From positions 1,590,046-1,654,045 of the forward strand of contig NZ_LT707409.1 in assembly GCF_900156875.1 (NCBI RefSeq): a DNA stretch of 64,000 nt, written 5' to 3'. Origin of the DNA: Robertmurraya dakarensis (GTDB lineage Bacteria; Bacillota; Bacilli; Bacillales; Cytobacillaceae). Both the position numbers and the translations under genes were made by a program. The notes below the pieces were generated by a model that was given only the letters and a program-made list of their open reading frames with translations, searched no databases and was not told the origin of the DNA. Shown here one piece after another: positions 16,192 to 31,330 of this stretch (position 1 is its first letter; every line of letters begins with the position of its first letter).

Positions 16192-17208
16192 TTAACGTCC
16201 TGCAGTTGTTGTCCCGATAAATTGTCCGTCAATAAGATCTGTAAAGTCTGGTTGTTCTTTCAAGAATTTTAATGCATATGAGCTGTCAGCAAACGCTTGA
16301 ACTGCATCCTGGTCAACTTCATAAGTAAAGCCAATTCTTTCCCACGCTAGGTCAACAACTTCTTTAGACAATTCCTGTTTAGTTGTATCTTTAATATCCT
16401 TAATCGTAATTTCCTTAGCTTCTTCTGGATTATCATTTATAAATTCTACTGCTTGTTTATGAGCATTTACGATTTTTTCAATTGTTTCAGGATTATTTTC
16501 AATCATTTCTCCGCTAGTAACCAATACAGAAGCCGGTAATGTTTCACCAAATGATACTTCATTCCACGGAATTACTACTTCAGCATTTGTTTCAATTTGA
16601 ATTTGCGCTGCCCATGGTTCTGGTGCAACAGCCACGTCAATCTTTCCTTGCTCAAGCATTGCTGAGTACTGTGCTGGGTTCCCAGTTAAGTGCTTCATTG
16701 TACCGCCAATACGTTCTGATGTTACACCTAGATCCTCAAGATATGTCTCATATTGTACATCATGTGTGCAGCCGATTCCTGGTGTGATGAATGTCTTTCC
16801 GGAGAAATCTTCCGGAGATTTAATATCGCTGCCTGCCTTCGCTAGTACAACCGTACCACCCGTTGAGCCACCAGCAATAATCTTTACATCTGCACCTGTT
16901 GTATAGTTATTCATCGCTGGTCCTGGTCCGACTAAACCTGCATCAACATCACCCGTTTTTAATGCAGTCATGAATGATCCGCCTTCGGCAAATGTTCTGT
17001 ATTCAATTACAGTACCGTCCCCAAGTTGTTCTTGGAAAAAGCCTTTTTCTTTTGCAACCATTGCAGGAACATGATTGATATTTGGAAAATAACCGATGAC
17101 GATTTTATCTTTTGAACCTGTAGATGCATCGTCACTTGACCCGCAAGCTGCAAGAATTCCTGTCAACAACATAACGGTAATAAAAACTAAAAATGATTTC
17201 TTTTTCAT
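16192..17208 (-). CDS. NitT/TauT-family ABC transporter substrate-binding lipoprotein
   Basis: A 338-residue extracytoplasmic binding protein. It has a signal peptide with lipobox LLTGILAAC, then the type II periplasmic-binding fold of the SsuA/TauA/NrtA family (IGYFPNINHVPAMVAKEKGFF, AEGGSFMTALKTGDVDAGLVG, PGIGCTHDVQYETYL). The family carries aliphatic sulfonates, taurine, nitrate or pyrimidine precursors, and the ligand cannot be fixed from sequence. The ATG at 17208 is chosen because the AGGGGG ribosome site is 8 nt upstream; the frame's earlier ATG at 17235 lies within the end of the permease gene. It is the third gene of an ATPase-permease-binding-protein operon. A nitrate module lies about 4 kb away, so nitrate is one candidate ligand. 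Confidence 0.88.
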   Translation of the reverse strand: MKKKSFLVFITVMLLTGILAACGSSDDASTGSKDKIVIGYFPNINHVPAMVAKEKGFFQEQLGDGTVIEYRTFAEGGSFMTALKTGDVDAGLVGPGPAMNNYTTGADVKIIAGGSTGGTVVLAKAGSDIKSPEDFSGKTFITPGIGCTHDVQYETYLEDLGVTSERIGGTMKHLTGNPAQYSAMLEQGKIDVAVAPEPWAAQIQIETNAEVVIPWNEVSFGETLPASVLVTSGEMIENNPETIEKIVNAHKQAVEFINDNPEEAKEITIKDIKDTTKQELSKEVVDLAWERIGFTYEVDQDAVQAFADSSYALKFLKEQPDFTDLIDGQFIGTTTAGR

Positions 17209-17224
17209 TTCTTTTTCCCCCTTT

Positions 17225-17980
17225 TTAAGTTTCAAGTCCCCATCTTTGCATAACTGATTTTTCTATTTTTGAGAAAATCAATTGATCGACAATTGATCCA
17301 ATAATACCGATTATTACAATAACACCAATTACGAGACTCATATTCCCGAAATCTGAAGCGTAACGGAGAGTGTATCCGAGTCCCGGTCCAGTACTTAAAA
17401 GTTCTCCAGCCATCAATGCGCGCCACGCAAATGCCCATGCAAGCCGGGCTCCTGTGACAACATACGGAATTGATGCCGGAAAAATCACTCTAGTAAATAA
17501 ATCAATGCCCTTAGAACCCATCGTTTGTGCTGCCCTAATATACAATGGTGAAACGTTCTTAATCCCCATTCTAACATTTAGCGTCATAACAAACGTGCCG
17601 CCGAGAACAACAACAAAAATAACAGATACTTCATTAAGACCAAACCACATGATCGCAAGTGGCAGCCAGACAATACTAGGAACGCTTTGAAGAGCCAAAA
17701 TCACTGTTCCAATGGTCTCATCCGCACTTTTAGACTTTGCTAGAAGAATCCCTAACAGAGCCCCAAGTATTAGTGAAATGACTAAGCCAATTGCCAGCCT
17801 TTGAAAGCTTGCGATTAAATCATAGATTAATGTTTTATCTAAAAATCCTGCCATCAATGCCTCTCCTACCATTGTTGGTGATGGTAGAATCGTAGGCAGC
17901 CAAAGCTCCAATCGGGAACCTAATTCCCAAACAACGATCACTGCAGCGAAGAAAATAAGACGCTTGATATTAGGATTCAT
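17225..17980 (-). CDS. NitT/TauT-family ABC transporter permease
   Basis: A 251-residue inner-membrane permease of the SsuC/TauC type with about six transmembrane segments. It has the EAA-type coupling loop near residues 157-177 (AAQTMGSKGIDLFTRVIFPAS), which contacts the ATPase, and the typical LPSPTMVGEAL segment after the first helix. It overlaps the ATPase gene by 4 nt and is followed by the binding-protein gene after 16 nt, forming one operon. Confidence 0.9.
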   Translation of the reverse strand: MNPNIKRLIFFAAVIVVWELGSRLELWLPTILPSPTMVGEALMAGFLDKTLIYDLIASFQRLAIGLVISLILGALLGILLAKSKSADETIGTVILALQSVPSIVWLPLAIMWFGLNEVSVIFVVVLGGTFVMTLNVRMGIKNVSPLYIRAAQTMGSKGIDLFTRVIFPASIPYVVTGARLAWAFAWRALMAGELLSTGPGLGYTLRYASDFGNMSLVIGVIVIIGIIGSIVDQLIFSKIEKSVMQRWGLET

Positions 17981-18753
17981 ATGGCCAATTCCTCACTAAC
18001 CACTTTATCAATTTCTGTCTTTAAATAACTCATGATATGTTCCTCAAGTTCAATGATTTTTTTCTTGTGTTCTTCGCGTGGTCTTGGAATATCAACTTTA
18101 ATATCCTGTAGGATCGTCCCTGGTTTCGTTCCCATGACAATAATTCGATCAGAAAGCTTAATAGATTCAGATATACTATGTGTGACGAATAGAATGGTTT
18201 TCTTTGTTTCTGTCCAGATCGTTTCGAGCTGGGTGTGCAAACGTGAACGGGTTTGTTCATCCAAAGCACCAAACGGTTCATCCATTAACAGGATTTCCGG
18301 ATCCATCGCTAATGCTCTTGCTATAGCAACACGCTGCTGCATTCCACCGGACAACTCATGAGGATAATGGGAAACATACTTCCCTAACTGAACCATTTGT
18401 AAGTATTTTTTTGCTCTTTCTTCAGCTTCTCTTTTAGGTACTTCTTTCTTTAACGGAAAAGTAACATTGTCCATCACATTCAACCAGGGAAAAAGTGCTG
18501 CCTGTTGAAATACCATCCCGCGGTCTTTGCCTGGTTTCTCGATTTTTTTATTATTTACAAGAATATCTCCGCTAGTAGCTTTCGTTAGTCCTGCCACAAT
18601 ATTCAGAAGCGTTGATTTACCACATCCAGATGGTCCAAGAATGGAAATAAATTCACCCTTTTCTATCGTTGTATTAATATCTTTTAATACATCCACTGGG
18701 CTTTGATCTTTATTTAAGAACTGTTTTTGTATATTATTAATTTCAATAAACAT
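17977..18753 (-). CDS. NitT/TauT-family ABC transporter ATPase
   Basis: A 258-residue ATPase. It shows the Walker A GPSGCGKST (about residues 41-49), the Q-loop region FQQAALFPWL, the signature LSGGMQQR, Walker B ILLMDEPFGALDEQ and the switch histidine in FVTHSISES. It is of the SsuB/TauB type and powers import with the next two genes. It is the first gene of the operon, about 50 nt downstream of a near-consensus promoter. The DEPFGALD form is typical of the sulfonate/nitrate/taurine branch. Confidence 0.92.
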   Translation of the reverse strand: MFIEINNIQKQFLNKDQSPVDVLKDINTTIEKGEFISILGPSGCGKSTLLNIVAGLTKATSGDILVNNKKIEKPGKDRGMVFQQAALFPWLNVMDNVTFPLKKEVPKREAEERAKKYLQMVQLGKYVSHYPHELSGGMQQRVAIARALAMDPEILLMDEPFGALDEQTRSRLHTQLETIWTETKKTILFVTHSISESIKLSDRIIVMGTKPGTILQDIKVDIPRPREEHKKKIIELEEHIMSYLKTEIDKVVSEELAI

Positions 18754-20746: not shown

Positions 20747-21769
20747 TTACGATAAGGGTACCTCAAAAATAACCTTTGTGCCTTTTCCTGGTTTAGATGT
20801 AATCGTTAGTTCACCTTGAACTGCACGACTTCTTTCTTCCATGCTGAATAAGCCTACTCCACGTGTCAGCAAACTCATATCAAAGCCTTTCCCATCATCT
20901 TCAACCATCACACGCACGATGCCATCTATCTGCCGAATAGTGACAGCCACCTCATCTGCATCAGCATATTTACGTGTATTTGTCAGTGCCTCTTGTATAA
21001 TTCGGTAAATCGCAATCTCTTTATTCATTGGTAGTCTTTTATCCAATGAACACTCAAAGCGGACATCTATCCCGTAGTGCTCTGAGCAGCGGCTTAAATA
21101 ACTTCGAATAGCGGGAACTAAACCCAGATCATCAAGTACAGACGGACGAAGTTCCCATGAAATTTCACGAATTTCTTGTATTAAATCGGTAGCTTCTTTT
21201 TGCATCTGATCGATTAAAGGATGGTTTATTTGTGATTGTAAAATATTAATCGTTATAAGATGACTATAAAGATTTTGACCGATCCCATCATGTAAATCCC
21301 TAGAAAGCCTTTTCCGTTCCTCTTCCTGAACGTCGATCAATTTCAGCGTCATCTCTTGAAGCTCTTCTTCCATTTCCTTTCGTTTCGTAATTTCATAACG
21401 AATCGCTAAATACTGATAGGGACTCCCATCCTCTTTAAGAAATGGCACGATGGTTGTATCCACCCAATAATATGAACCATCCTTTGCACGATTTCGTATC
21501 TCGCCTTTCCATACATTACCTGAAGAAATCGTTCTCCATAAATTCTTAAAAAACTCCTTAGAATGGTAGCCAGAATTAACAATTCGATGGTCTTCTCCAA
21601 CTAATTCTTCCCTGGAATATTTAGATATCTCACAAAATTTATCGTTCACATGCTGTATAATCCCTCGTTCATTTGTATACGCAACAATGGCTGATTCATC
21701 TAATGCATATTTTAAATCAAATAGCTCTTTGTATGCATTTGCACCATCTGATTGTTGTGGCTTTTCCAC
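20747..21769 (-). CDS. PAS-domain sensor histidine kinase, NreB-like (HisKA_3)
   Basis: A soluble 340-residue kinase. Residues about 20-140 are a PAS domain (AYTNERGIIQHVNDKFCEIS, HRIVNSGYHSKEFF, NVWKGEIRNRAKDGSYYWVD) like the flavin-binding PAS of NifL/Aer/MmoS. Next comes a HisKA_3 box with the phospho-histidine in SRDLHDGIGQNLYSHL and a HATPase domain (N box, EDDGKGFD G1 box). Known NreB senses oxygen with four PAS cysteines; only one cysteine is present here, so a flavin or another cofactor is more likely. The start is the GTG at 21769, whose AGGTGG lies in the last codons of the GAF gene 4 nt upstream. Partner regulator: 22242-22895. Confidence 0.85.
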   Translation of the reverse strand: MEKPQQSDGANAYKELFDLKYALDESAIVAYTNERGIIQHVNDKFCEISKYSREELVGEDHRIVNSGYHSKEFFKNLWRTISSGNVWKGEIRNRAKDGSYYWVDTTIVPFLKEDGSPYQYLAIRYEITKRKEMEEELQEMTLKLIDVQEEERKRLSRDLHDGIGQNLYSHLITINILQSQINHPLIDQMQKEATDLIQEIREISWELRPSVLDDLGLVPAIRSYLSRCSEHYGIDVRFECSLDKRLPMNKEIAIYRIIQEALTNTRKYADADEVAVTIRQIDGIVRVMVEDDGKGFDMSLLTRGVGLFSMEERSRAVQGELTITSKPGKGTKVIFEVPLS

Positions 21770-21773
21770 GTTG

Positions 21774-22226
21774 TCACCACCTGTCTTCATCCAAATGAGT
21801 ATTCATCAATTCTTCTATTTTAATAGCTGCTTTTTGAACGCTCTTTTGTTGTTCTTCCTCGAAAATACGCTTATTCTTTCTTTCCCCGACTAATAAAACA
21901 CCCTTAGCAATCCCATTGAGATGAATGGGTACCGCATAAGAATGCAATAAGTTTTCAGCTAACATAATCGGATATTCAAGTGCTTTTCCTAATATGTTAT
22001 TTGGAAAATCAGCAATCATCATCGGCCTGTCTGTTGATATGACACGACCTGCAATTCCCTTTCCATATCGAACTGTTATCCTTTTATATTTGTCATTGCG
22101 GTTTCCTGCTGCGACTAGCCATCTAATATTTGGTCCTATTCTATCTTGAAAAGCATAGCCAACAAAATCACATTGTATATGTAATAATAGCTCATCACAA
22201 ACTCGAGCAATTGATTTATTTTTCAT
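21774..22226 (-). CDS. GAF-domain protein, NreA-like nitrate receptor candidate
   Basis: A 150-residue single GAF domain (VCDELLLHIQCDFVGYAFQDRIG, RYGKGIAGRVISTDRPMMIAD, YAVPIHLNGIAKGVLLVGERK). In Staphylococcus, NreA is a GAF protein that binds nitrate and restrains NreB. The position between an NreC-like regulator and an NreB-like kinase, 15 nt and 4 nt from its neighbours, and the nearby nitrate genes make this the likely counterpart. The nitrate ligand is inferred from context, not read from residues. Confidence 0.8.
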   Translation of the reverse strand: MKNKSIARVCDELLLHIQCDFVGYAFQDRIGPNIRWLVAAGNRNDKYKRITVRYGKGIAGRVISTDRPMMIADFPNNILGKALEYPIMLAENLLHSYAVPIHLNGIAKGVLLVGERKNKRIFEEEQQKSVQKAAIKIEELMNTHLDEDRW

Positions 22227-22241
22227 GTCAATAGTCGTCCT

Positions 22242-22895
22242 TTATAACCCGTATCCTAGTAAACCCTTTTTTAAAGCATAGGCAACTAACTCTGGTCTCG
22301 TTTTCATCTGAAGCTTTTCCATTAAATTACCTTTATGTGTTTCGACTGTTTTTACGCTAATGCCCAGTTGTTCAGCGATATCTTTATTGGCATATCCCTT
22401 TGCGATTAGTGTAAGCACTTCTCTTTCACGATCTGATAGAATATTAAAGGGATCCGCATCACCATTCTTCGCATTGTTTAAGTACTCTTCCATTAATCGT
22501 TTGGTTGCAGACGGATGAAGATAAGCATCTCCGTTTGATACTGATAAAATAGCCTGAATAAGTTCATCATGAGGAGCACTTTTTAAAATACAGCCGGAAG
22601 CTCCTGCTTGTATAGCGCGAAACAAATATTCTTCATCATCGTGCATCGTTAATATTAATATAGATATTTCTGGCAATTGTTTCTTTAATTCAGATGTAGC
22701 TGAAAGACCATCCTTTCCATGAGGCATGCTCAAATCCATTAAGATCACATCAGGTGTGAGTTCTTTAGCCTTTTCTATCCCCTCATTTCCTTCGGATGCC
22801 TCTCCAACCACCTCCATTTGCGGGTGATTATTTAAAAGCATTTTTAATCCCATTCGAACGACAGCATGATCGTCTACAAGCAAAATTTTTATCAA
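22242..22895 (-). CDS. LuxR-type response regulator, NreC-like
   Basis: A 217-residue regulator. The receiver domain has acidic DD at residues 8-9, the phosphorylated Asp54 in VILMDLSMP, a conserved Thr in LILTMHDDEEYL and Lys in CILKSAP. The C-terminal LuxR helix-turn-helix (LSDREREVLTLIAKGYANKDIAEQLGISVKTVETHKGN) ends the protein. It is flanked by two HisKA_3 kinases and a GAF protein. It probably activates the nitrate operon upstream at 23.8-30.2 kb and perhaps its own genes. Confidence 0.88.
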   Translation of the reverse strand: MIKILLVDDHAVVRMGLKMLLNNHPQMEVVGEASEGNEGIEKAKELTPDVILMDLSMPHGKDGLSATSELKKQLPEISILILTMHDDEEYLFRAIQAGASGCILKSAPHDELIQAILSVSNGDAYLHPSATKRLMEEYLNNAKNGDADPFNILSDREREVLTLIAKGYANKDIAEQLGISVKTVETHKGNLMEKLQMKTRPELVAYALKKGLLGYGL

Positions 22896-22921
22896 ATCCT
22901 GTTCCCCCTAAACACGGTTGC

Positions 22922-23575
22922 CTACGATTGCAACGGTAAAAATAATTTAATAACCGTTCCTTCCCCTATAACTGATGATATGATGCAATTTCCACCAATA
23001 ATTTTCATTCTTTCTATCATCGCTGCTATCCCAGCTGACTGTTGAACTTCTTTATCTACATCAAAACCCTTACCAAAATCCTTAACAAGGATTTCAAGGC
23101 AATCAGACTTCCAGACTACATTGATTTCGATTTGTAGGGAATCAGCATACTTTGCGATATTTACCAATGCTTCTTGACAGACCCGAAACAAAGTCATCCG
23201 ATGATGTTCGGGTAACCGGCTTTCTGTCCCATCGTTAATGAAATCAACTAAAATACCGTAAGTAGAGGTGTATAGCTTTAAATAGCTTTTCAAGGCAGGA
23301 ATAAATCCTAATGTCGTTAGAGTTGGAGGATGTAATTCAACCGCTAACAGGCGAACCTCTTGAATGGTCTTTTCCAACAATTCTCCCATTTCGTGGATAT
23401 ATCCTTTCAAACTATCTCCTTCCACACTTGTCTCTAAAAATTGAAATCCAGTAAACACACTATATAATGTCTGCCCTACACCCTCATGCAGTTCTAGGGC
23501 GATTCGTTTTATTTCCTCTTCTTGAGATTGAATTATATAAGAGCTAATTTGATTTCTAGAAGGTAAACTCTCCAT
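22922..23575 (-). CDS. soluble HisKA_3 histidine kinase without sensor domain
   Basis: A 217-residue protein that consists only of the transmitter. It has an HisKA_3 box with histidine in RIALELHEGVGQTLYS (about residue 30), the helical dimerisation region, then HATPase with an N box (RVCQEALVNIAKYA), G1 (KDFGKGFD) and G2 (AGIAAMIERM) boxes. No transmembrane or input domain is visible. It is the first gene of the four-gene regulatory cluster, 26 nt before the response regulator. Having two kinases of one class for a single regulator is unusual; it may phosphorylate, dephosphorylate or heterodimerise with the PAS kinase. Confidence 0.82.
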   Translation of the reverse strand: MESLPSRNQISSYIIQSQEEEIKRIALELHEGVGQTLYSVFTGFQFLETSVEGDSLKGYIHEMGELLEKTIQEVRLLAVELHPPTLTTLGFIPALKSYLKLYTSTYGILVDFINDGTESRLPEHHRMTLFRVCQEALVNIAKYADSLQIEINVVWKSDCLEILVKDFGKGFDVDKEVQQSAGIAAMIERMKIIGGNCIISSVIGEGTVIKLFLPLQS

Positions 23576-23731
23576 CGGATTTCCCCTTACCCCTTGTTTT
23601 TATAGGCTTAATGTACACAATTCTATCATAATATACCATATAGATTAAAATCTCATTACATCAAACATAATAAGTTAATTTTCCTTATAATAAACATTTC
23701 AAAAAAGAATGAAAGTGATAAATATCTTTAC

Positions 23732-23779
23732 AAAAAAATGACCAGCTCTCCTATTGATAAACATGGAAGAGCGGTCATT
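23732..23779 (-). terminator. terminator between narK and the regulatory genes
   Basis: On the minus strand AATGACCGCTCTTCC pairs with GGAGAGCTGGTCATT and is followed by seven T. It ends the nitrate operon, so the regulatory genes have their own promoter in 23580-23730. Confidence 0.85.
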
Positions 23780-23826
23780 CTTAGATCCATAGAAGTTCGT
23801 ATTTCGGACTACTGCAGCCCTGTTTT

Positions 23827-25134
23827 CTATGACGCTTTTGCAATTTTCACTTGTTTTTTCGCTGTTCTTTGGTAATAGTACCAGTTTAGAGCCATTGAAA
23901 TGATATATAATGCGATAAAGAAATAAAGTGCTGTTACTGGTGATCCCGTTGCGCTTGTTGACCAGCCAAATAATTGTGGAATAAAATAAGATCCATATGC
24001 AGCAAAGGCAGCTGTGATTCCTAATACAGGTGCCGCTTCTTTCGGAACAAAGATCTCTGGGATCATTTGGAATGTTGAACCAGAACCAATACCAGAAGCG
24101 AGGAACAAAATTAAGAATGACGCCAGGAATCCTGCAAACTCTTTTGCATTAGTAAAATAAATAACTCCACCTGCACCAATAATCATGACGATAAATACCC
24201 AAGCTGTAACAACTGCTCCGCCAAGCTTATCCGAAATCCATCCACCAACAGGTCTTGCTGCTGCTGCTAGTAGAGCACCCAAGAAAGCAAGAGACACATG
24301 TTCAGGAAATTGAGAGCGAAGAAGCAGTGGAAAAGCTGCTGAATATCCGATGAATGAACCAAAAGTTGCTACATATAATACGGTCATGATCCATGTATGT
24401 TTTCTTTTTAAAACAACAAATTGATCTGCAACTGATTGACTAGTATTTGGAAGATTATCCATTCCAAAATAAGCGACAATCGTCATAATGATAATTGGGA
24501 TTACCCAGATGAATGCTGCATTTTGCAGCCAAACGGTTTCACCATTAGCCATTACTTGACCTTCTCCAATAAATGCAAACGTGCTAGATGCAATAATAAG
24601 CGGTGTAACAAATTGGACAACAGAAACTCCCATGTTTCCTAAGCCGCCATTGATCCCAAGTGCTGTTCCTTTTTCGGATTTTGGGAAGAAGAAACTCAAA
24701 TTTGATGAAGAAGAAGAAAAGTTTCCTCCACCCAATCCGCAAAGTGCTGCTAACAAGAGCATGACAGAATAGGGTGTTTCTGGGTTTTGCACAGCAAAAC
24801 CGATTCCGATAGCAGGGATGATTAGTACGGCTGTAGAAAATACCGTCCAGTTTCTACCTCCAAATTTACCAACCCCAAAAGTATAAATAAAACGAAGTGT
24901 TGCCCCTACTAGTCCTGGAATCGCAGCCAATGTAAACAATTGCTCTTGTGTATAAGTAAATCCTGCTTCCCCTAAGCTTGCTGCTACTACAGACCAAATT
25001 TGCCAAACGATAAAAGCTAGCATTAAGGAAGGCACAGAAATTGAAAGGTTCCTTTTTGCATGCTTTTTACCTGTCTCTTGCCAAAACGTTGGATCTTCTG
25101 GTGTCCAGCTTGTAATCCGCTTATTTTTACTCAT
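23827..25134 (-). CDS. narK: nitrate/nitrite MFS transporter, NarK type
   Basis: A 435-residue transporter with 12 expected transmembrane segments. It has the nitrate-porter signatures: Arg in GATLRFIYTFGVGKFGGRNW after helix 2, and the glycine/serine-rich GLGGGNFSSSSSNLSFF with GTALGINGGLGNMGVS in helices 4-5. It would import nitrate and/or export nitrite for the reductase encoded upstream in the same operon. It overlaps the preceding small gene by 4 nt and is the last gene before the terminator. Confidence 0.92.
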   Translation of the reverse strand: MSKNKRITSWTPEDPTFWQETGKKHAKRNLSISVPSLMLAFIVWQIWSVVAASLGEAGFTYTQEQLFTLAAIPGLVGATLRFIYTFGVGKFGGRNWTVFSTAVLIIPAIGIGFAVQNPETPYSVMLLLAALCGLGGGNFSSSSSNLSFFFPKSEKGTALGINGGLGNMGVSVVQFVTPLIIASSTFAFIGEGQVMANGETVWLQNAAFIWVIPIIIMTIVAYFGMDNLPNTSQSVADQFVVLKRKHTWIMTVLYVATFGSFIGYSAAFPLLLRSQFPEHVSLAFLGALLAAAARPVGGWISDKLGGAVVTAWVFIVMIIGAGGVIYFTNAKEFAGFLASFLILFLASGIGSGSTFQMIPEIFVPKEAAPVLGITAAFAAYGSYFIPQLFGWSTSATGSPVTALYFFIALYIISMALNWYYYQRTAKKQVKIAKAS

Positions 25135-25415
25135 TGTTCTTCTACCCTTCTAATAATATAGGTTAAATTACTTAACTGGTCATAGGCACTCCACTGCTTG
25201 TCCTCAAATAAGACCGTTGAACCAAGGGGGACTGCAAAGAATTTTTGTTGATCAAAGTAGATTCGGACATGTGTATGATCGGGACATAACTCTACTTTTG
25301 TAACTTCTTTACGGATGAACGGGGCACGATCATCGCCTTCCTCATCTTGAATCGCTACTTCTACAGCTGCTGACGCTATAAATTCCGATAAACGTTGTAA
25401 ATTAATGAGTTCCAC
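25131..25415 (-). CDS. hypothetical protein of the nitrate operon (94 residues)
   Basis: Not recognised. A small soluble protein with a mixed alpha/beta pattern: EFIASAAVEVAIQDEE, then FIRKEVTKVELCPDHTHVRIYFD and AVPLGSTVLFEDKQWSAYD. It starts at a GTG at 25415 about 10 nt after AAAGGA, overlaps the upstream gene by 14 nt and narK by 4 nt, so it is made with the nitrate proteins. It could be an assembly factor or a small subunit, but no motif supports a specific role. Confidence 0.75.
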   Translation of the reverse strand: MELINLQRLSEFIASAAVEVAIQDEEGDDRAPFIRKEVTKVELCPDHTHVRIYFDQQKFFAVPLGSTVLFEDKQWSAYDQLSNLTYIIRRVEEQ

Positions 25416-25713
25416 AGCTGCTGCATCCTTTCTTTACGGGGTAGACGAACATTTTATATCCTTGCAGATACTTCCAAAAATGCTCTCCTCCCCGATCTTC
25501 TAAAAATTCTATTACTTCTTCCTCTGACTGAAATCTGCTCATGCCTTTTACCTCGGCAATCACCATTTCGGCATCGTCAATTTGTTTTTCTTCTAAGTAC
25601 CAATGGAGACGGATCTCTTTAAATAGCTCTGCTAGCATCTCCTGTATATCAGAACCGAAATTTCCTTTCGCCTCTCTTACAAAACAGAAATCCAAAAATG
25701 TTTCACTGTTCAT
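25402..25713 (-). CDS. hypothetical protein of the nitrate operon (103 residues)
   Basis: Not recognised. An acidic, mostly helical protein (DIQEMLAELFKEIRLHWYLEE, EEEVIEFLEDRGGEHFWKYLQG) ending in KKGCSSCGTH, a C-x2-C tail that could bind metal. Molybdoenzyme operons usually encode a TorD/NarJ-type chaperone of about 180-230 residues; this protein occupies the expected gene position but is half that size and shows no clear NarJ motif. It lies 6 nt downstream of the two-helix membrane protein gene. Confidence 0.75.
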   Translation of the reverse strand: MNSETFLDFCFVREAKGNFGSDIQEMLAELFKEIRLHWYLEEKQIDDAEMVIAEVKGMSRFQSEEEVIEFLEDRGGEHFWKYLQGYKMFVYPVKKGCSSCGTH

Positions 25714-25719
25714 ACTAGT

Positions 25720-25911
25720 TCACACCTTCTGTTTTTTATCGCTTTTATAAACGAATAACGCAATTGGGAATACGATCAAGTTTAGTACACAAAAGATAAT
25801 CGCATTTTCATAGTTTTCAAATTTAAACTGGTGAACCATTTTTTGTGTAAAAACAATATTCAGCGCTAAGCACACAAGCAAAATTCCAAAATATATATGT
25901 TTACGATTCAT
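25720..25911 (-). CDS. small two-helix membrane protein of the nitrate operon
   Basis: A 63-residue protein with two hydrophobic segments (about residues 6-22 and 38-55) separated by a polar loop, and a basic C-terminus (KSDKKQKV). Its start overlaps the end of the Rieske gene by 11 nt. It may anchor or assemble the membrane part of the reductase. No family is recognised. Confidence 0.7.
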   Translation of the reverse strand: MNRKHIYFGILLVCLALNIVFTQKMVHQFKFENYENAIIFCVLNLIVFPIALFVYKSDKKQKV

Positions 25912-26425
25912 AGCGCTTCACCCTCACTGCGTAAACTGCACCCTTATCAACTTTCACTTCGATGGTCGGTAATGGACGTCTTGGCGGTCCTGCAGTTGGT
26001 GCCCCTGTTTCAACATCGAATTTGCCATGGTGACATGGACAGAGCATTTCACCTTTTTCCTTTTGCCAAAAAACCGGACACTGTAAATGTGTACAAGCAC
26101 TGTTATAGGCAACAAACTTTTCTTCTGACAGCCTTATTAAAATCGCATCATCATGCTCGCCAGGAAACTTAAAGTCTACCGCTTCCCCTACAGCTATTTT
26201 GTTTAAATCTGCAATTTTTTTGTGGGGATACTCTTTATCTCCTAAACCCATTAATTCTTTCGCTGCAACAGCTCCCCATGGAAGAGAAGAGACAGCGAAT
26301 ACTCCAGCTGCGCCTACAATGGTTTTCATGAATCCGCGTCGATCTAATTTTCTTTCATTGTTGCGATTTATATTATGTGTGTAATTATCTTCATCAAAGG
26401 GGATCCTATTATTTTTGTCTGACAT
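25901..26425 (-). CDS. Tat-exported Rieske [2Fe-2S] protein
   Basis: A 174-residue protein. The N-terminus has a twin-arginine motif, DRRGFMK at about residues 28-34, followed by a hydrophobic stretch, so the folded protein is exported and probably anchored by that helix. The Rieske domain has the two ligand boxes CTHLQCPV and CPCHHGKFD, that is C-x-H and C-x2-H. It lies between the four-cluster ferredoxin-like gene and small operon genes. Such a protein is normal in bc complexes but not in bacterial Nas or Nar operons; an analogous Rieske plus cytochrome b pair is known for haloarchaeal nitrate reductase. Confidence 0.88.
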   Translation of the reverse strand: MSDKNNRIPFDEDNYTHNINRNNERKLDRRGFMKTIVGAAGVFAVSSLPWGAVAAKELMGLGDKEYPHKKIADLNKIAVGEAVDFKFPGEHDDAILIRLSEEKFVAYNSACTHLQCPVFWQKEKGEMLCPCHHGKFDVETGAPTAGPPRRPLPTIEVKVDKGAVYAVRVKRYES

Positions 26426-26437
26426 GATTAATCCCTC

Positions 26438-26995
26438 CTAAAACAATTTCGTTACGCCTTGTAATATACCAGGCAAATTGACTTTTACGTTCGTTTCACT
26501 TTCTAAATGCATGCTTGCAACCCATTTACCGTTATCCAAGTTAAATTGCTTTTGTTTTGCTTCGATCTCTTCATCTGTTAGCCATTGAAGCGTATTTGAC
26601 GGACAAACACTAGCACACATTGGTGGAATACCATCTTTCGTACGATCAATACAGAGGTCACATTTATACATCAGATTTTGTTCTGTATCAAACTTAGGAA
26701 TTCCATAAGGACAGGCAATCGTACAGTTTTGACAGCCGATACATTTTTCCACAAGAGCTGAAAGAACAGCTCCTGTTTCATGAATTTGAATCGCTTGTGC
26801 CGGACAGCTTCTTGCACAGGCCGGGTTCACACAGTGAAGACACATAAGCGGCATCGTTTGTCTGTTAACAAGCGGATTAACATCATAGACATAGTTTCGG
26901 TTTCTTTCATCATGCCCGCCGCACTGTGTGCAGGCAGCGAGGCATGAACGGCAGCCGATACAATTTTCAAGTTCTAAATATAGCCTTTTCTTCAT
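26438..26995 (-). CDS. four-cluster ferredoxin-like electron-transfer subunit
   Basis: A 185-residue iron-sulfur protein of the DmsB/FdhB/NrfC type. Four cysteine groups are visible: CIGCRSCLAAC near residue 12, CLHCVNPACARSC in the first third, CIGCQNCTIACPYG in the middle, and CDLC with CASVCP later, together fitting four [4Fe-4S] clusters. It should carry electrons between the membrane subunit and the molybdenum subunit. There is no export signal, so it works on the cytoplasmic face. Its ATG directly follows the stop of the catalytic gene with no gap. Confidence 0.9.
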   Translation of the reverse strand: MKKRLYLELENCIGCRSCLAACTQCGGHDERNRNYVYDVNPLVNRQTMPLMCLHCVNPACARSCPAQAIQIHETGAVLSALVEKCIGCQNCTIACPYGIPKFDTEQNLMYKCDLCIDRTKDGIPPMCASVCPSNTLQWLTDEEIEAKQKQFNLDNGKWVASMHLESETNVKVNLPGILQGVTKLF

Positions 26996-29152
26996 TTATT
27001 GCACCTTCTTTACTGCTACTTTTTCGATCTGTGCAGCACACGCTTTAAATTCAGGCATTCTTGACATCGGATCAAGAGCTGCAATCGTTAATAGATTAAT
27101 AGAATCTTCGTGACCAAAGTGATATGGTACAAACACAGTATCTTTCCGAATGGCTTCAGTAATTTTTACTTTATACACCGCTTCTCCTCTTCTTGTAAAA
27201 AGGCGGACACGTTCTTCATGCTTGATTTTATATTTTTCAGCTGTTTCTGGATGTACCTCAACAAATGGTTCTGGGCACATATCATATAAAAACTTTATAC
27301 GTCTTGTTTGATTTCCTGATAAGTAATGGAACACGACACGGCCTGTTGTTAATCGCAGCGGGTAGTTTTCATCAGGTTCTTCAGCCGGCGGACGGTATGG
27401 CAATGCGCAAATTTTTGCTTTTCCATCTGGATGATAGAATTTTTTATCTAAGAACATATGCGGTGTTCCTGGGTCATCTTCACTTTTACAAGGCCAGAAC
27501 ACTCCATCTTGTTTCTCAATTTTGTCCCATGTTGCACCAGAATAGTCTGCATATCCGCCTTTCGTTGCTCCTCTAAATTCATCTGCAACATCTTTAGCAG
27601 TTTTTAAGTGCGAGAAGTATTTTCCTTTTCCTAACCGTTCTGCTAACTCTACTTGAATCTGCCAGTCAGGCTTAGACTCTCCTACAGGCTCCTGAGCTTT
27701 GTTAATTTTGATAATGCGTCCTTCAATATTTGTCACTGTTCCTTCATCCTCGGACCATGTAACAGCTGGCAGTACGACATCTGCAAATTCAGCTGACTCA
27801 GATAGATAGAAATCAGAACATACCATGAAATCAAGACCTTTTAATGCTTTACGGACAAAGTTCTGATTTGGCGCAGATACTGCTGGGTTTGAACATAATA
27901 GATATAATCCGCGTATTTCTTTTTGATCCATTAATTCGAACATTTCATATGCGGATACACCTGGTTTTGGCATTTCTTCCGGAGTGATCCCCCAGAAATT
28001 GCACACTTCTTTAACATGTTCCGGGTTTGTTAGCTTACGGTAACCTGGAAGCAAATCCGATTTTTGACCGTGCTCACGGCCTCCTTGGCCATTACCTTGA
28101 CCTGTGAATGTGGCAACACCGGATTTAGGACGGCCAATTTTGCCCGTAACTAAAGCCATATTTGTATAAGCAGACACATTATCTACACCCTTATGCTGCT
28201 GCTCAACACCACGAGCAAACATCACAACCGCATTAGGGGCTTTTCCGTAGATTTCTGCTGCACGGATAATTTTTTCAGGAGCAACTCCTGTTAACTCGCT
28301 TGTATATTCTGGAGTAAATTGTTTAACAAGCTCTTTTGTTTCTTCAAAACCATTTGTGTGATTGTTCACAAATTGTTCATCTGCAAAGCCGTTTTGGATT
28401 AATAAGTTAAGTATTCCATTAGCCAATGCAAGGTCTGTACCTGGCATCAAATCAAGGTGCAAATCAGCTCTTCTTGCAATCGGCGTTTCACGAGGATCTA
28501 CTACAATGATATAGCCTCCTCTTTCCTGTACGTTCCAAATGCGGAACATAGAAGTTGGATGACATTCAGCTGTATTGCTTCCTGCTATAAACAAGCAGTC
28601 TGTCTCATGGATATCTGTCCAAGGTAATGTTGAACCGCGGTCCACACCGAATGAACGAAGGAATCCACCTGCTGCACTAGACATACAGAATCTTCCGTTA
28701 TAATCAATATAGCGTGTTCCAAGAGCGACACGAGCAAACTTGCCTGTTAGGTAGCACTTTTCATTTGTCATTGACACGCCGCTAAAGACGGACAGGCTGT
28801 CTTTCCCATATTCCTTCTGAAGCTTTTGGAAGTTTTGAGCGATTAGATCGTAGGCTTCATCCCAACTTGCTTCTCTAAATCCTTTTGTCGTTCCCTTTAA
28901 TGAAGCATCGTCACGAATTAAAGGTTTCAAGATACGATCATCATGGTTTGTTTGCTGATAGGCTGTAACTCCTTTAGGACACATTTTTCCGACTGTCACC
29001 GGCCAGCTGTAACGAGGTTCCACCCCGATAATTTTATTGGTTTTTGTATTTACACGTAAATTCATCCCGCAATAGCTGCAATGTGTCTTTACAAGTGTTT
29101 CATTAGGATGAACAACGTTTTGAACTTCTTTAAAAAATTTATCCCTTTGCAT
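26996..29152 (-). CDS. Nas-type bis-MGD molybdoenzyme, probable nitrate reductase catalytic subunit
   Basis: A 718-residue molybdopterin oxidoreductase. Near the N-terminus a cluster motif holds Cys25, Cys28 and Cys58, but the position expected for the third of four cysteines is Leu32. The molybdenum ligand is probably the cysteine in YNGRFCMSSAAGG, and TGQGNGQGGREHGQK is close to assimilatory nitrate reductases such as B. subtilis NasC. The C-terminal dinucleotide-binding domain is present (LTTGRVVFHYLSGNQTRR). There is no Tat signal, so it is cytoplasmic. It lacks the extra C-terminal cluster of NasC-type enzymes and is encoded with membrane and ferredoxin-like subunits and NarK, so a respiratory role fits better than assimilation. 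Confidence 0.88.
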   Translation of the reverse strand: MQRDKFFKEVQNVVHPNETLVKTHCSYCGMNLRVNTKTNKIIGVEPRYSWPVTVGKMCPKGVTAYQQTNHDDRILKPLIRDDASLKGTTKGFREASWDEAYDLIAQNFQKLQKEYGKDSLSVFSGVSMTNEKCYLTGKFARVALGTRYIDYNGRFCMSSAAGGFLRSFGVDRGSTLPWTDIHETDCLFIAGSNTAECHPTSMFRIWNVQERGGYIIVVDPRETPIARRADLHLDLMPGTDLALANGILNLLIQNGFADEQFVNNHTNGFEETKELVKQFTPEYTSELTGVAPEKIIRAAEIYGKAPNAVVMFARGVEQQHKGVDNVSAYTNMALVTGKIGRPKSGVATFTGQGNGQGGREHGQKSDLLPGYRKLTNPEHVKEVCNFWGITPEEMPKPGVSAYEMFELMDQKEIRGLYLLCSNPAVSAPNQNFVRKALKGLDFMVCSDFYLSESAEFADVVLPAVTWSEDEGTVTNIEGRIIKINKAQEPVGESKPDWQIQVELAERLGKGKYFSHLKTAKDVADEFRGATKGGYADYSGATWDKIEKQDGVFWPCKSEDDPGTPHMFLDKKFYHPDGKAKICALPYRPPAEEPDENYPLRLTTGRVVFHYLSGNQTRRIKFLYDMCPEPFVEVHPETAEKYKIKHEERVRLFTRRGEAVYKVKITEAIRKDTVFVPYHFGHEDSINLLTIAALDPMSRMPEFKACAAQIEKVAVKKVQ

Positions 29153-30224
29153 TTTGGTTTGCCTCCTTCACCTTTACTTCATGTGTAGGGAATCCTGAGA
29201 ATTGAGCAATACGATATTTCCTGCGGCAAGGCAGACACAACTCTGCAAGATGGAAATCTTCCTTTTTAAATTCAATTTCGTTCGTTGCTAAAACGCTCAG
29301 CACATCTTGTGATTGTTCAGTTGATACAAATTCTTCTCCGCAAACTTTACAAGGTTTCATTGATTGTTCTCCGTAGTGTTCTCTGTAATTTCTTGCAAGC
29401 ACACTCATTGGTCTGAATGGGATATGTGCCAGCTTGCCAAAAGGCAGGTAGATTAATGTAATAATGACAGAATACTGATGGATTAAGGACATTACTGAAT
29501 GTCCCCAGCCATGTAAGAACATGTTGATAAATGTTAGTGCAAGTCCTGTAATACTTACGAATAGCAATAGGTATAGCGGCATAAAATCGTACATAAATTT
29601 CTGCTCTGCACGAGCCTGCATATTCTTTAAGCGACGGTAAAGCGCCATTGTCACACCAGCAATTACCATAATAGCCGAGATATTTAATGCATTATAAGAA
29701 AGGTAGGCAATAAAACCATCAGCTGGAATTGTAATTAAGCTAATCCCCATTGCAACGATCGTATAATAACCATTTTCCGGCATTGTAAAATACATCCAGC
29801 CAAACACAAGAGGAAATGTTACTAAACAAGCTAACACGCAGCCCCAGCCTATTAATAAATGCTGTGTCCAACGATATACTCCTCGATTCCAAATAAATCT
29901 GTAAGTTGCTAAATGCTCTACTGTTGTTTGTGGTGTTGTTTTTCTAAAAAGCAGCTTTAAACCTTTTTTGATAAAAACTTTTGTAGGCGGCCTTTCTCCC
30001 CAAGCGATAAATCGGTAAAAGAATCCGCCTAAAAATACAATTGTTCCAACCATGTATCCATATAAATTTAGGTCAACATGCGTAAACATTCTCGTTCCGA
30101 TAAAAGTTAAAATTGCAAGTCCGAGCACTGAGATAAACATTGATTTTGCAAAATGTGAGGCAAATGCGTGATTTATGGAATGTTCTTTTTTGACTTTTGG
30201 TTTCGTGGCAACTTGTGCTTCCAT
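29139..30224 (-). CDS. cytochrome-b-like membrane subunit with C-terminal paired CxxC
   Basis: A 361-residue membrane protein and the first gene of the operon. It has about six hydrophobic segments, with histidines in WTQHLLIGWG and FLHGWGHSVMSLIHQYS plus KLAHIPF that could bind heme b as in NarI-like quinol oxidising subunits. The cytoplasmic tail carries CKVC and CLPC about 48 residues apart, a likely metal or Fe-S site. The ATG at 30224, 7 nt after AAGGAGG, is preferred over the frame opening at 30245. Its end overlaps the catalytic gene by 14 nt. It is the expected route from menaquinol to the cytoplasmic subunits. Confidence 0.82.
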   Translation of the reverse strand: MEAQVATKPKVKKEHSINHAFASHFAKSMFISVLGLAILTFIGTRMFTHVDLNLYGYMVGTIVFLGGFFYRFIAWGERPPTKVFIKKGLKLLFRKTTPQTTVEHLATYRFIWNRGVYRWTQHLLIGWGCVLACLVTFPLVFGWMYFTMPENGYYTIVAMGISLITIPADGFIAYLSYNALNISAIMVIAGVTMALYRRLKNMQARAEQKFMYDFMPLYLLLFVSITGLALTFINMFLHGWGHSVMSLIHQYSVIITLIYLPFGKLAHIPFRPMSVLARNYREHYGEQSMKPCKVCGEEFVSTEQSQDVLSVLATNEIEFKKEDFHLAELCLPCRRKYRIAQFSGFPTHEVKVKEANQNAKG

Positions 30225-30286
30225 TGTTGGTCCTCCTTGAATCAATTAAGTTAGTATCATTGTAAAAGGAATTGTTTTTTTGCCGT

Positions 30287-30304
30287 ATCGGGGAATTTCC
30301 CTAT
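30287..30304. promoter_or_regulatory. palindromic candidate operator upstream of the nitrate operon
   Basis: GGGAATTTCCC (30291-30301) is a perfect odd palindrome within ATCGGGGAATTTCCCTAT, about 65-80 nt before the first nitrate gene. Staphylococcal NreC sites have TAGGG and CCCTA halves about 4 nt apart; here TAGGG and CCCC are 5 nt apart. It is a candidate NreC-like site, not proven. Confidence 0.45.
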
Positions 30305-30814: not shown

Positions 30815-31174
30815 CTAATACAGTGAGAACTCACCAATAAAGCGTTGTCCTATAATTCTTGGCATTGGCGGTAATGTAACAACCGTCAAGGAGCCAGCGG
30901 GCACTTCAGTTAGGCCAGCATCCCTAATGGAATAGAAGCCATTTTCCTTAAGCTTCTGCAGCTGATCATCACTGCCTTTCAGAACAATTTTACTCATTCC
31001 TGATTGATACCATTCCACGAAATAATTAAAGTAATCAGGAAATTGACAATTGTTTGCACTTACCATATTTATCGTTGAAATGGTTGCGGCATGGGCAACC
31101 TGAGCTGCAACCTTTCCTGGCCTCATTTCTAAGTCACTATTCACAACAAAATATTGAACAATATCGTTATCCAT
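30815..31174 (-). CDS. PTH2-type peptidyl-tRNA hydrolase family protein
   Basis: A 119-residue protein with the archaeal/eukaryotic Pth2 fold: MRPGKVAAQVAHAA at residues 17-30 with the conserved lysine and histidine, SKIVLKGSDDQLQKL, and the C-terminal DAGLTEVPAGSLTVVTLPPMPR, which matches the Pth2 Asp/Thr active-site region. The family releases tRNA from stalled peptidyl-tRNA. Most bacteria use the unrelated Pth1, so this would be an additional copy with an uncertain substrate. The ATG at 31174 is chosen for the AGGAGGGG ribosome site 7 nt upstream; the frame opens 14 codons earlier. Confidence 0.8.
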   Translation of the reverse strand: MDNDIVQYFVVNSDLEMRPGKVAAQVAHAATISTINMVSANNCQFPDYFNYFVEWYQSGMSKIVLKGSDDQLQKLKENGFYSIRDAGLTEVPAGSLTVVTLPPMPRIIGQRFIGEFSLY

Positions 31175-31330
31175 GAATACCCCTCCTGCCATTTCAGTTG
31201 TTTGCCTTATAATCATTTATACGGTTAAAGGAGGATTCTTATGTTTTTTCATTGTGAATTGAAAAATATCGATATTTATCCTTTTTTTATATTACTGTTA
31301 TATTACAAAGTTTACGTTTTGGATACCTGT

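Follow-up and report, generated by a model that had tools for sequence, protein, structure and literature searches.

We analysed a 64,000-nucleotide stretch of the Robertmurraya dakarensis genome (RefSeq assembly GCF_900156875.1, contig NZ_LT707409.1, forward-strand positions 1,590,046 to 1,654,045; hereafter the window) and focused on a putative nitrate reductase operon of unusual composition. Two tight gene groups lie on the minus strand at positions 20747-30303 of the window (Table 1). The first encodes, in this order, a cytochrome-b-like membrane subunit (cytb), a molybdenum bis-pyranopterin guanine dinucleotide (Mo-bisPGD) catalytic subunit, an iron-sulfur (FeS) subunit, a Rieske protein, a membrane protein of 63 amino acids (aa), two further small proteins (s103 and s94) and a NarK-type transporter. 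The second, 251 bases beyond narK, comprises a histidine kinase without visible sensor, a response regulator, an NreA-like protein and a PAS histidine kinase. This confirms the operon and adjoining regulatory set of a preliminary description made from the sequence alone; the operon genes it listed are all uninterrupted minus-strand open reading frames (ORFs). From cytb to narK the junctions are either overlaps (14, 11, 14 and 4 bases) or gaps of 0 to 12 bases, which suggests one transcription unit. The best start of cytb is the ATG at 30224, preceded by AGGAGG, while the start at 30245 in the ORF list is an upstream TTG.

Table 1. Features of the operon and the adjoining regulatory genes (window positions)
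Feature	Position	Strand	Basis
cytb, NarI-like membrane subunit, 361 aa from ATG	29139..30224	-	PF02665, hydropathy, conserved residues
Catalytic Mo-bisPGD subunit, NasC clade, 718 aa, Cys156-Met157 at the metal	26996..29152	-	Profiles, trees, alignment
Approximate site of an apparent 12-base deletion in the catalytic gene	29060..29071	-	Alignment with relatives
FeS subunit, 185 aa, 17 Cys, up to four [4Fe-4S]	26438..26995	-	Profile scan, Cys count
Rieske protein, 174 aa, twin-arginine translocation (Tat) motif LDRRGFMKT, cluster motif CTHLQC...CPCHHGKF	25901..26425	-	PF00355, motifs
63-aa protein, two predicted helices	25720..25911	-	ORF, hydropathy, conservation
s103, 103 aa, predicted ferredoxin-like fold, C-terminal CxxC	25402..25713	-	Structure prediction
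s94, 94 aa, mostly beta, conserved CPDxTHxR	25131..25415	-	Structure prediction
NarK-type nitrate/nitrite transporter, 435 aa	23827..25134	-	2A0108 and NarU profiles
Histidine kinase, 217 aa, no sensor domain seen	22922..23575	-	Profile scan
Response regulator, NarL/NreC type by sequence layout, 217 aa	22242..22895	-	Sequence layout
NreA-like protein, 150 aa	21774..22226	-	NF038250
PAS histidine kinase, 347 aa, without NreB-type Fe-S cysteines	20747..21790	-	Profile and motif scan
Palindrome TAGGG-N6-CCCGATA ahead of cytb, candidate response-regulator site	30286..30303	-	Conservation upstream of cytb

Conservation and spread of the operon

The preliminary description had proposed a joint search for the operon proteins in related genomes. 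From 103 relatives found in a genome scan we kept 80 loci. Since these were chosen for a closely similar catalytic subunit, they are not independent of one another; more distant loci still keep the four-subunit core (see below). The genes for cytb, the catalytic subunit, the FeS subunit, the Rieske protein and the 63-aa protein followed in this order on one strand in 80 of these 80 Bacilli loci. s103 came next in 76 of them (with two further weak matches more distant) and s94 was found in 75. A NarK match was present in 50 loci, 11 at 78% identity or above and 39 at 22-26%, one of the latter on the other strand. The response regulator and the NreA-like protein were each matched in 72 loci, downstream on the same strand in 63.

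A membrane-subunit profile matched 154 of 193 host-family genomes (type II, see below, included), 39 of a sample of 398 from the class and 2 of a sample of 398 from the phylum; one of these two is the host. Among the matches listed, scores were about 575-673 bits for what we call type I and 299-353 bits for type II, with three fragments between; judged by E-values, about 31 host-family genomes have type II only. The order cytb, catalytic subunit, FeS subunit, Rieske protein was kept in eight of eight further loci, namely type II L140, L152-L155, L157 and L158 and type I L156. The divergent type II operon of L140 (6941-12396) carries an Mrp-like ATPase gene between those for the FeS subunit and the Rieske protein. 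NarK matches lie near L152, L153, L154 and L158 and, on the other strand, near L155.

Among 72,556 plasmid records, only four matched the membrane subunit, all from Deinococcus (L114, L126, L127, L128). In all four, the genes for cytb, catalytic subunit, 4Fe-4S protein and Rieske protein keep this order; the plasmids also encode a small protein and a second protein of the major facilitator superfamily (MFS); two of the second MFS proteins were checked against the NarK models and scored 277 and 268, under the cut-off of 311.7. The Deinococcus cytb is annotated as 'MFS transporter' and the small protein as DUF6755 in three annotations. Our 63-aa protein corresponds in position to this DUF6755 or hypothetical protein. 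In addition, an Arthrobacter plasmid (L115, 1399-6620) carries in a row a transporter-like ORF, a NasC-clade enzyme (39% identity) and an FAD (flavin adenine dinucleotide)-protein-like ORF; the profile search of plasmid records gave no membrane-subunit match there.

Subunits and regulatory genes

The catalytic subunit scored over the cut-offs of PF00384, PF01568 and PF04879. Its identification as NarG was rejected (TIGR01580, 60.5 bits versus a cut-off of 1084.15), as was NapA (TIGR01706, 329.5 versus 930.55; an RR motif was found in 0 of 80 catalytic subunits). For phylogeny we used one tree of 41 rows and a second of 28 rows, from which 13 had been dropped (both NarG, three long rows and eight near duplicates). 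The 41-row tree grouped the catalytic subunit with NasC, the Deinococcus enzymes and the Arthrobacter enzyme (support 97/94), and this group stood apart from formate dehydrogenases, NapA, NasA and NarG. In the 28-row tree, operon enzymes, NasC and Deinococcus enzymes (without the Arthrobacter row) were joined with support 100/100. A joint clade of operon enzymes with formate dehydrogenases was rejected by the approximately unbiased test (p-AU 1.4e-42). All 17 operon-type enzymes of the tree (12 of type I, one of type II and four from Deinococcus) have Cys-Met at the metal, likewise NasC, NasA and NapA; six formate dehydrogenases have Cys-His, Sec-His (Sec, selenocysteine) or Cys-Gln at this site. 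Profiles, tree support and the Cys-Met pair bear out a Nas-type catalytic subunit, not NarG, Nap or formate dehydrogenase, and the tree comparison proposed in the preliminary description places it in the NasC clade.

For cytb, residue numbers are those of the analysed fragment (add 2 for numbering from the ATG). Hydropathy and charges predict about six helices with both termini inside, a count read from overlapping hydropathy windows in which residues 153-187 could hold more than one helix. The predicted inner loops (1-22, 75-120, 188-216 and 269-359) contain 4, 10, 5 and 14 Lys and Arg residues, versus 1, 0 and 0 in the outer loops. H120, H247 and H265 are invariant across 11 cytb sequences from two phyla; Bacillota have one more His at position 47, Deinococcus at 46. 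Of these residues, H47 and H247 are close to the predicted outer side, H120 and H265 to the inner side. This placement suggests two haems b, an arrangement that we take to match NarI, including the spacing of 18 residues between two His of the last helix. The predicted inner C-terminal tail contains four invariant Cys (290, 293, 328 and 331) in a CX2C...CX2C domain.

The FeS subunit matched Fer4_11 (76.7 bits). It contains 17 Cys in the window, and 17 lie within the first 170 residues in 80 of 80 relatives, so the earlier label of a four-cluster protein fits. The window protein has no export signal. RR-x-[FLIVM] occurred within the first 45 residues in 0 of 80 catalytic and 1 of 80 FeS subunits, versus DRRxFM in 80 of 80 Rieske proteins.

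The Rieske protein itself matched PF00355 (40.2 bits, cut-off 20.3). Its predicted export by the Tat pathway, as claimed before, is backed by this invariant motif and not by the Tat model, which gave 14.8 against a cut-off of 16.7, so that the call rests on the motif. The conserved tail ahead of the RR (NYTHNI) measures 28 residues, compared to 7 in the host QcrA-like protein, which is encoded elsewhere and followed by a cytochrome b6-like gene (L145). The cluster motif CPCHHG[KFIA]F was found in 80 of 80 relatives, and CPCHxGxF in eight of eight further loci (seven type II, one type I) and in the one Deinococcus Rieske protein read of four; the corresponding motifs are CPCHNGLYT in host QcrA-like protein, CPCHGGVYD in Thermus and CPCHFSVFD in AioB. 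Loss of the Ser and Tyr of bc1 Rieske proteins lowers the potential. Since host QcrA lacks the Ser but keeps the Tyr, the operon Rieske protein may differ from it only modestly in potential. Assignment to the bc1/b6f Rieske proteins was rejected: the Rieske domain is present, but the membrane partner matches PF02665 only and not a bc-type cytochrome b.

Among the small proteins, s103 is predicted to fold as beta-alpha-beta-beta-alpha-beta (predicted local distance difference test, pLDDT, 91.8), s94 gave a model with pLDDT 83.6, and the profile scan found no match to the NarJ family. The transporter called NarK in the preliminary description is a NarK-type match just under the model cut-off (2A0108, 308.3 versus 311.7; NarU, 426.9 versus 836).

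The adjoining regulatory set had been called Nre-like. We found a loose resemblance: the NreA-like protein scored 90.4 with NF038250 (cut-off 175), and none of the 75 and none of the 73 kinases examined had a CX2C-X8-14-CX2C motif like that of NreB. Ahead of cytb, a palindrome TRGGG-N4-7-CCCYA (at most one mismatch) occurred in 74 of 78 upstream regions, that is, the window and 77 loci with enough upstream sequence. Over twenty rounds of shuffling the count averaged 6.8 and peaked at 14; inside the gene it was 6 of 77. The upstream regions share ancestry, hence 74 of 78 is not a count of independent sites. According to a review, in its passage on this regulator, phosphorylated NreC binds a GC-rich palindrome (PMC8139620). 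From position and conservation we infer that an NreC-like regulator controls the operon via this candidate site.

A putative respiratory nitrate reductase and its alternatives

By sequence, we are dealing with a real, widespread and largely unrecognised membrane-bound Nas-type enzyme, as indicated by its gene set, clade, metal site, topology signals, spread and the absence, as judged by profile models, of other nitrate reductase genes from many carriers. The host genome (5.48 Mb) encodes two NarG (2164 and 1736 bits, cut-off 1084), a NapA (968 bits), an NrfA-family protein and, on contig C10, a separate NasC (1308.6 bits) adjoining NirB and then a small Rieske protein. A profile scan of the genes of the window's cluster found neither NirB nor NirD. 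Across the 80 genomes with a locus, NarG was over its cut-off in 28 and broken or split in 2 more. Of the other 50, 29 had NasC over its cut-off, and of the remaining 21, 2 had NapA. The last 19, among them two metagenome assemblies (G011 and G060), had none of the three over the model cut-off, which leaves the operon enzyme as the remaining candidate. NirB was found in 7 of these 19, NrfA in 4 and neither in 11, in a count that covers these two enzymes, with ferredoxin-type nitrite reductase and NirK outside it. One organism of the 11 is R. massiliosenegalensis JC6 (L027, G019), for which the strain description gives, among its listed traits, positive nitrate reduction in the API 20E test and weak anaerobic growth (PMC3746431).

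We put the probability that the operon encodes a membrane-bound, menaquinol-dependent, cytoplasm-facing respiratory nitrate reductase built on a NasC-type subunit at roughly two in three. The separate route of nitrate reduction proposed in the preliminary description holds as far as its parts are concerned: a Nas-type subunit with NarI-like membrane, four-cluster and Tat-motif Rieske partners, a separate NasC-NirB pair in the host, and often the sole candidate by three marker models. We infer nitrate as substrate, menaquinol as donor and an inward flow of electrons. A diheme cytochrome b, with the outer haem on H47 and H247 and the inner haem on H120 and H265, would oxidise menaquinol close to its outer face. 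Electrons would then move inward, possibly via the CX2C...CX2C tail if this binds a cluster, to the four-cluster ferredoxin, and on to the [4Fe-4S] cluster of the catalytic subunit and Mo, where nitrate would be reduced to nitrite in the cytoplasm; NarK would exchange nitrate and nitrite. The Rieske protein would sit outside, probably anchored by its Tat signal and with its conserved N-terminal tail inside. As a guess, its likeliest role is to exchange electrons, in one direction or the other, at the outer haem or at the quinol site.

A quinol-bifurcating variant of this scheme, in which a low-potential Rieske protein and the diheme cytochrome would oxidise menaquinol at the outer face, we consider unlikely. 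Of the two electrons, one would leave via the Rieske protein for a further acceptor while its partner moved inward to nitrate, as if a bc-like quinol site had been grafted on a NarI-like anchor and a Nas-type enzyme.

Several observations weigh against a respiratory nitrate reductase. With two NarG and a NapA, the host does not need the operon for nitrate respiration, and a NarI-like design needs no outer Rieske protein. The best library match of the catalytic subunit, NasC (NF047855), gave 855.6 bits and thus stays below its cut-off of 1100; the only match of cytb, PF02665 (NarI), is just under its cut-off (21.3 versus 22.9 bits; the Deinococcus subunit gave 22.2). Formate dehydrogenase TIGR01591 came close with 651.5 (cut-off 666.25), and the type II enzyme of L140 exceeded this cut-off with 690.2, versus 919.2 for NasC. 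We read the formate dehydrogenase model as broad; the L140 enzyme, too, has its higher score with NasC. The absence counts depend on curated cut-offs, and first-look candidates were scored in part in some genomes (in JC6, NarG 12 of 40, NasC 17 of 23, NapA 27 of 34, NirB 28 of 30 and NrfA 3 of 3). G052, among the 19 genomes, encodes one more NasC-like enzyme, whose 921.5 bits resemble a type II score, and the JC6 phenotype is that of one commercial test. Finally, CX2CX3C of the N-terminal [4Fe-4S] cluster is present in 80 of 80 relatives, but the window catalytic subunit lacks the third Cys. Around 29060-29071 its gene has 12 bases (4 residues) fewer, in frame, than those of relatives, and an imperfect direct repeat occupies this place in the relatives shown. 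The preliminary description did not remark on the lost cysteine. Either an error of assembly or a genuine mutation may account for it, and in the latter case this strain probably has an impaired enzyme. The remaining genes of the window set have open frames of usual length.

The same operon could serve assimilation, the membrane and Rieske parts merely supplying electrons. This is how Heylen and Keltjens read the B. bataviensis genes (see below), and the NasC clade as well as NirB in 7 of the 19 genomes would agree. We hold this to be unlikely as well, because the host has a separate nasC-nirB cluster; moreover, 29 of the 50 NarG-less genomes have a separate NasC over the cut-off, 11 of the 19 lack NirB and NrfA, with the limit on that count given above, and the membrane and four-cluster subunits and the Nre-like set point to respiration. 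Alternatively, the catalytic and FeS subunits might leave the cell together with the Tat-type Rieske protein, as AioA hitch-hikes out with AioB, and nitrate would be reduced outside. The location of the set's conserved Tat motif on the Rieske protein (80 of 80), the arsenite oxidase small-subunit model TIGR02694 as second-best match of the Rieske protein (56.3, under its cut-off of 95.65) and an alignment with the AioB entry 8r3a_B that spans the Tat region speak for such export, which we nevertheless find quite improbable because the membrane subunit resembles NarI and its conserved tail is predicted to lie inside. In addition, AioA is described, in the section on this clade, as having no amino-acid ligand to Mo (PMC7331816), where the operon enzyme has Cys. 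Very improbable in our view is another oxyanion as substrate (chlorate, selenate, iodate) or an oxidase, for example a formate dehydrogenase feeding the quinone pool. Superfamily relatives do so, sequence alone cannot give the substrate, and with the formate dehydrogenase model type I comes close to the cut-off and type II exceeds it; set against this are the Cys-Met site, the NasC clade with the rejected formate dehydrogenase clade, and the JC6 phenotype. NarK-type and NreA-like genes in the cluster argue both against export and against other substrates.

Known systems and neighbouring genes

With assimilatory NasC of the B. subtilis type, the operon enzyme shares one clade, Cys-Met at Mo and the lack of an N-terminal RR motif. 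It differs in its score under the NasC cut-off and in having membrane, four-cluster and Rieske partners instead of NirB/NirD. NarGHI combines a Mo subunit, a four-cluster subunit and a diheme membrane subunit, as predicted for our operon; in contrast, our operon has a NarG score far under the cut-off, a Rieske protein and no NarJ-family match, and two NarG are encoded separately in the genome. The operon has the three subunits of complex iron-sulfur molybdoenzymes together, namely a Mo subunit, a four-cluster subunit and a membrane anchor. The comparison with haloarchaeal NarGH and NarB/NarC, made in the preliminary description, proved loose: a Rieske protein and a cytochrome b are encoded with that nitrate reductase too, but the passages on that system place its catalytic subunit outside, deny that NarC is homologous to NarI and report that the Rieske protein NarB did not co-purify (PMC7754194). 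Arsenite oxidase AioAB also pairs a Tat-signal Rieske protein with a Mo subunit of a nearby clade, AioA lacking the amino-acid Mo ligand as mentioned, and this clade is said to be without membrane and four-cluster partners (PMC7331816).

In the portion of the literature covered, we found one earlier description of the gene set. Heylen and Keltjens (2012) reported B. bataviensis nasC with FeS and Rieske genes and called it an alternative assimilatory system (PMC3475470); their passages on it give a 729-aa NasC and an unlinked NarK, as in many Neobacillus loci here, and do not mention a membrane subunit. Compared by description, since the species is not among our loci, this set is very probably the operon described here. 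Wells et al. (2020) state, in their treatment of the NasC/NasA, NapA and AioA clade, that four-cluster and membrane-anchor subunits accompany none of its members and that nitrogen assimilation is the exclusive role of NasA/NasC (PMC7331816); the relevant part of a 2023 survey agrees on function (PMC10100899). The operon is a conserved counter-example to the statement on partner subunits. Many Bacillus-type bacteria and some Deinococcus carry a Nas-type enzyme with parts suited to breathing nitrate. If it does respire nitrate, surveys based on narG and napA that count NasC-like genes as assimilatory overlook a nitrate reductase in a large bacterial group.

Elsewhere in the host genome, outside the window, a formate dehydrogenase gene (G000:C11:1564138-1566186) contains one in-frame TGA and is probably a selenoprotein gene, with similar genes in several relatives. 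Within the window, a PTH2-family peptidyl-tRNA hydrolase gene lies upstream of the operon (30815-31216). Genes of an ATP-binding cassette (ABC) transporter for an NMT1-like binding protein, a permease and an ATPase occupy 16192-18753; within the available flanks, 1 of the 80 loci has a binding-protein match and 3 have an ATPase match.

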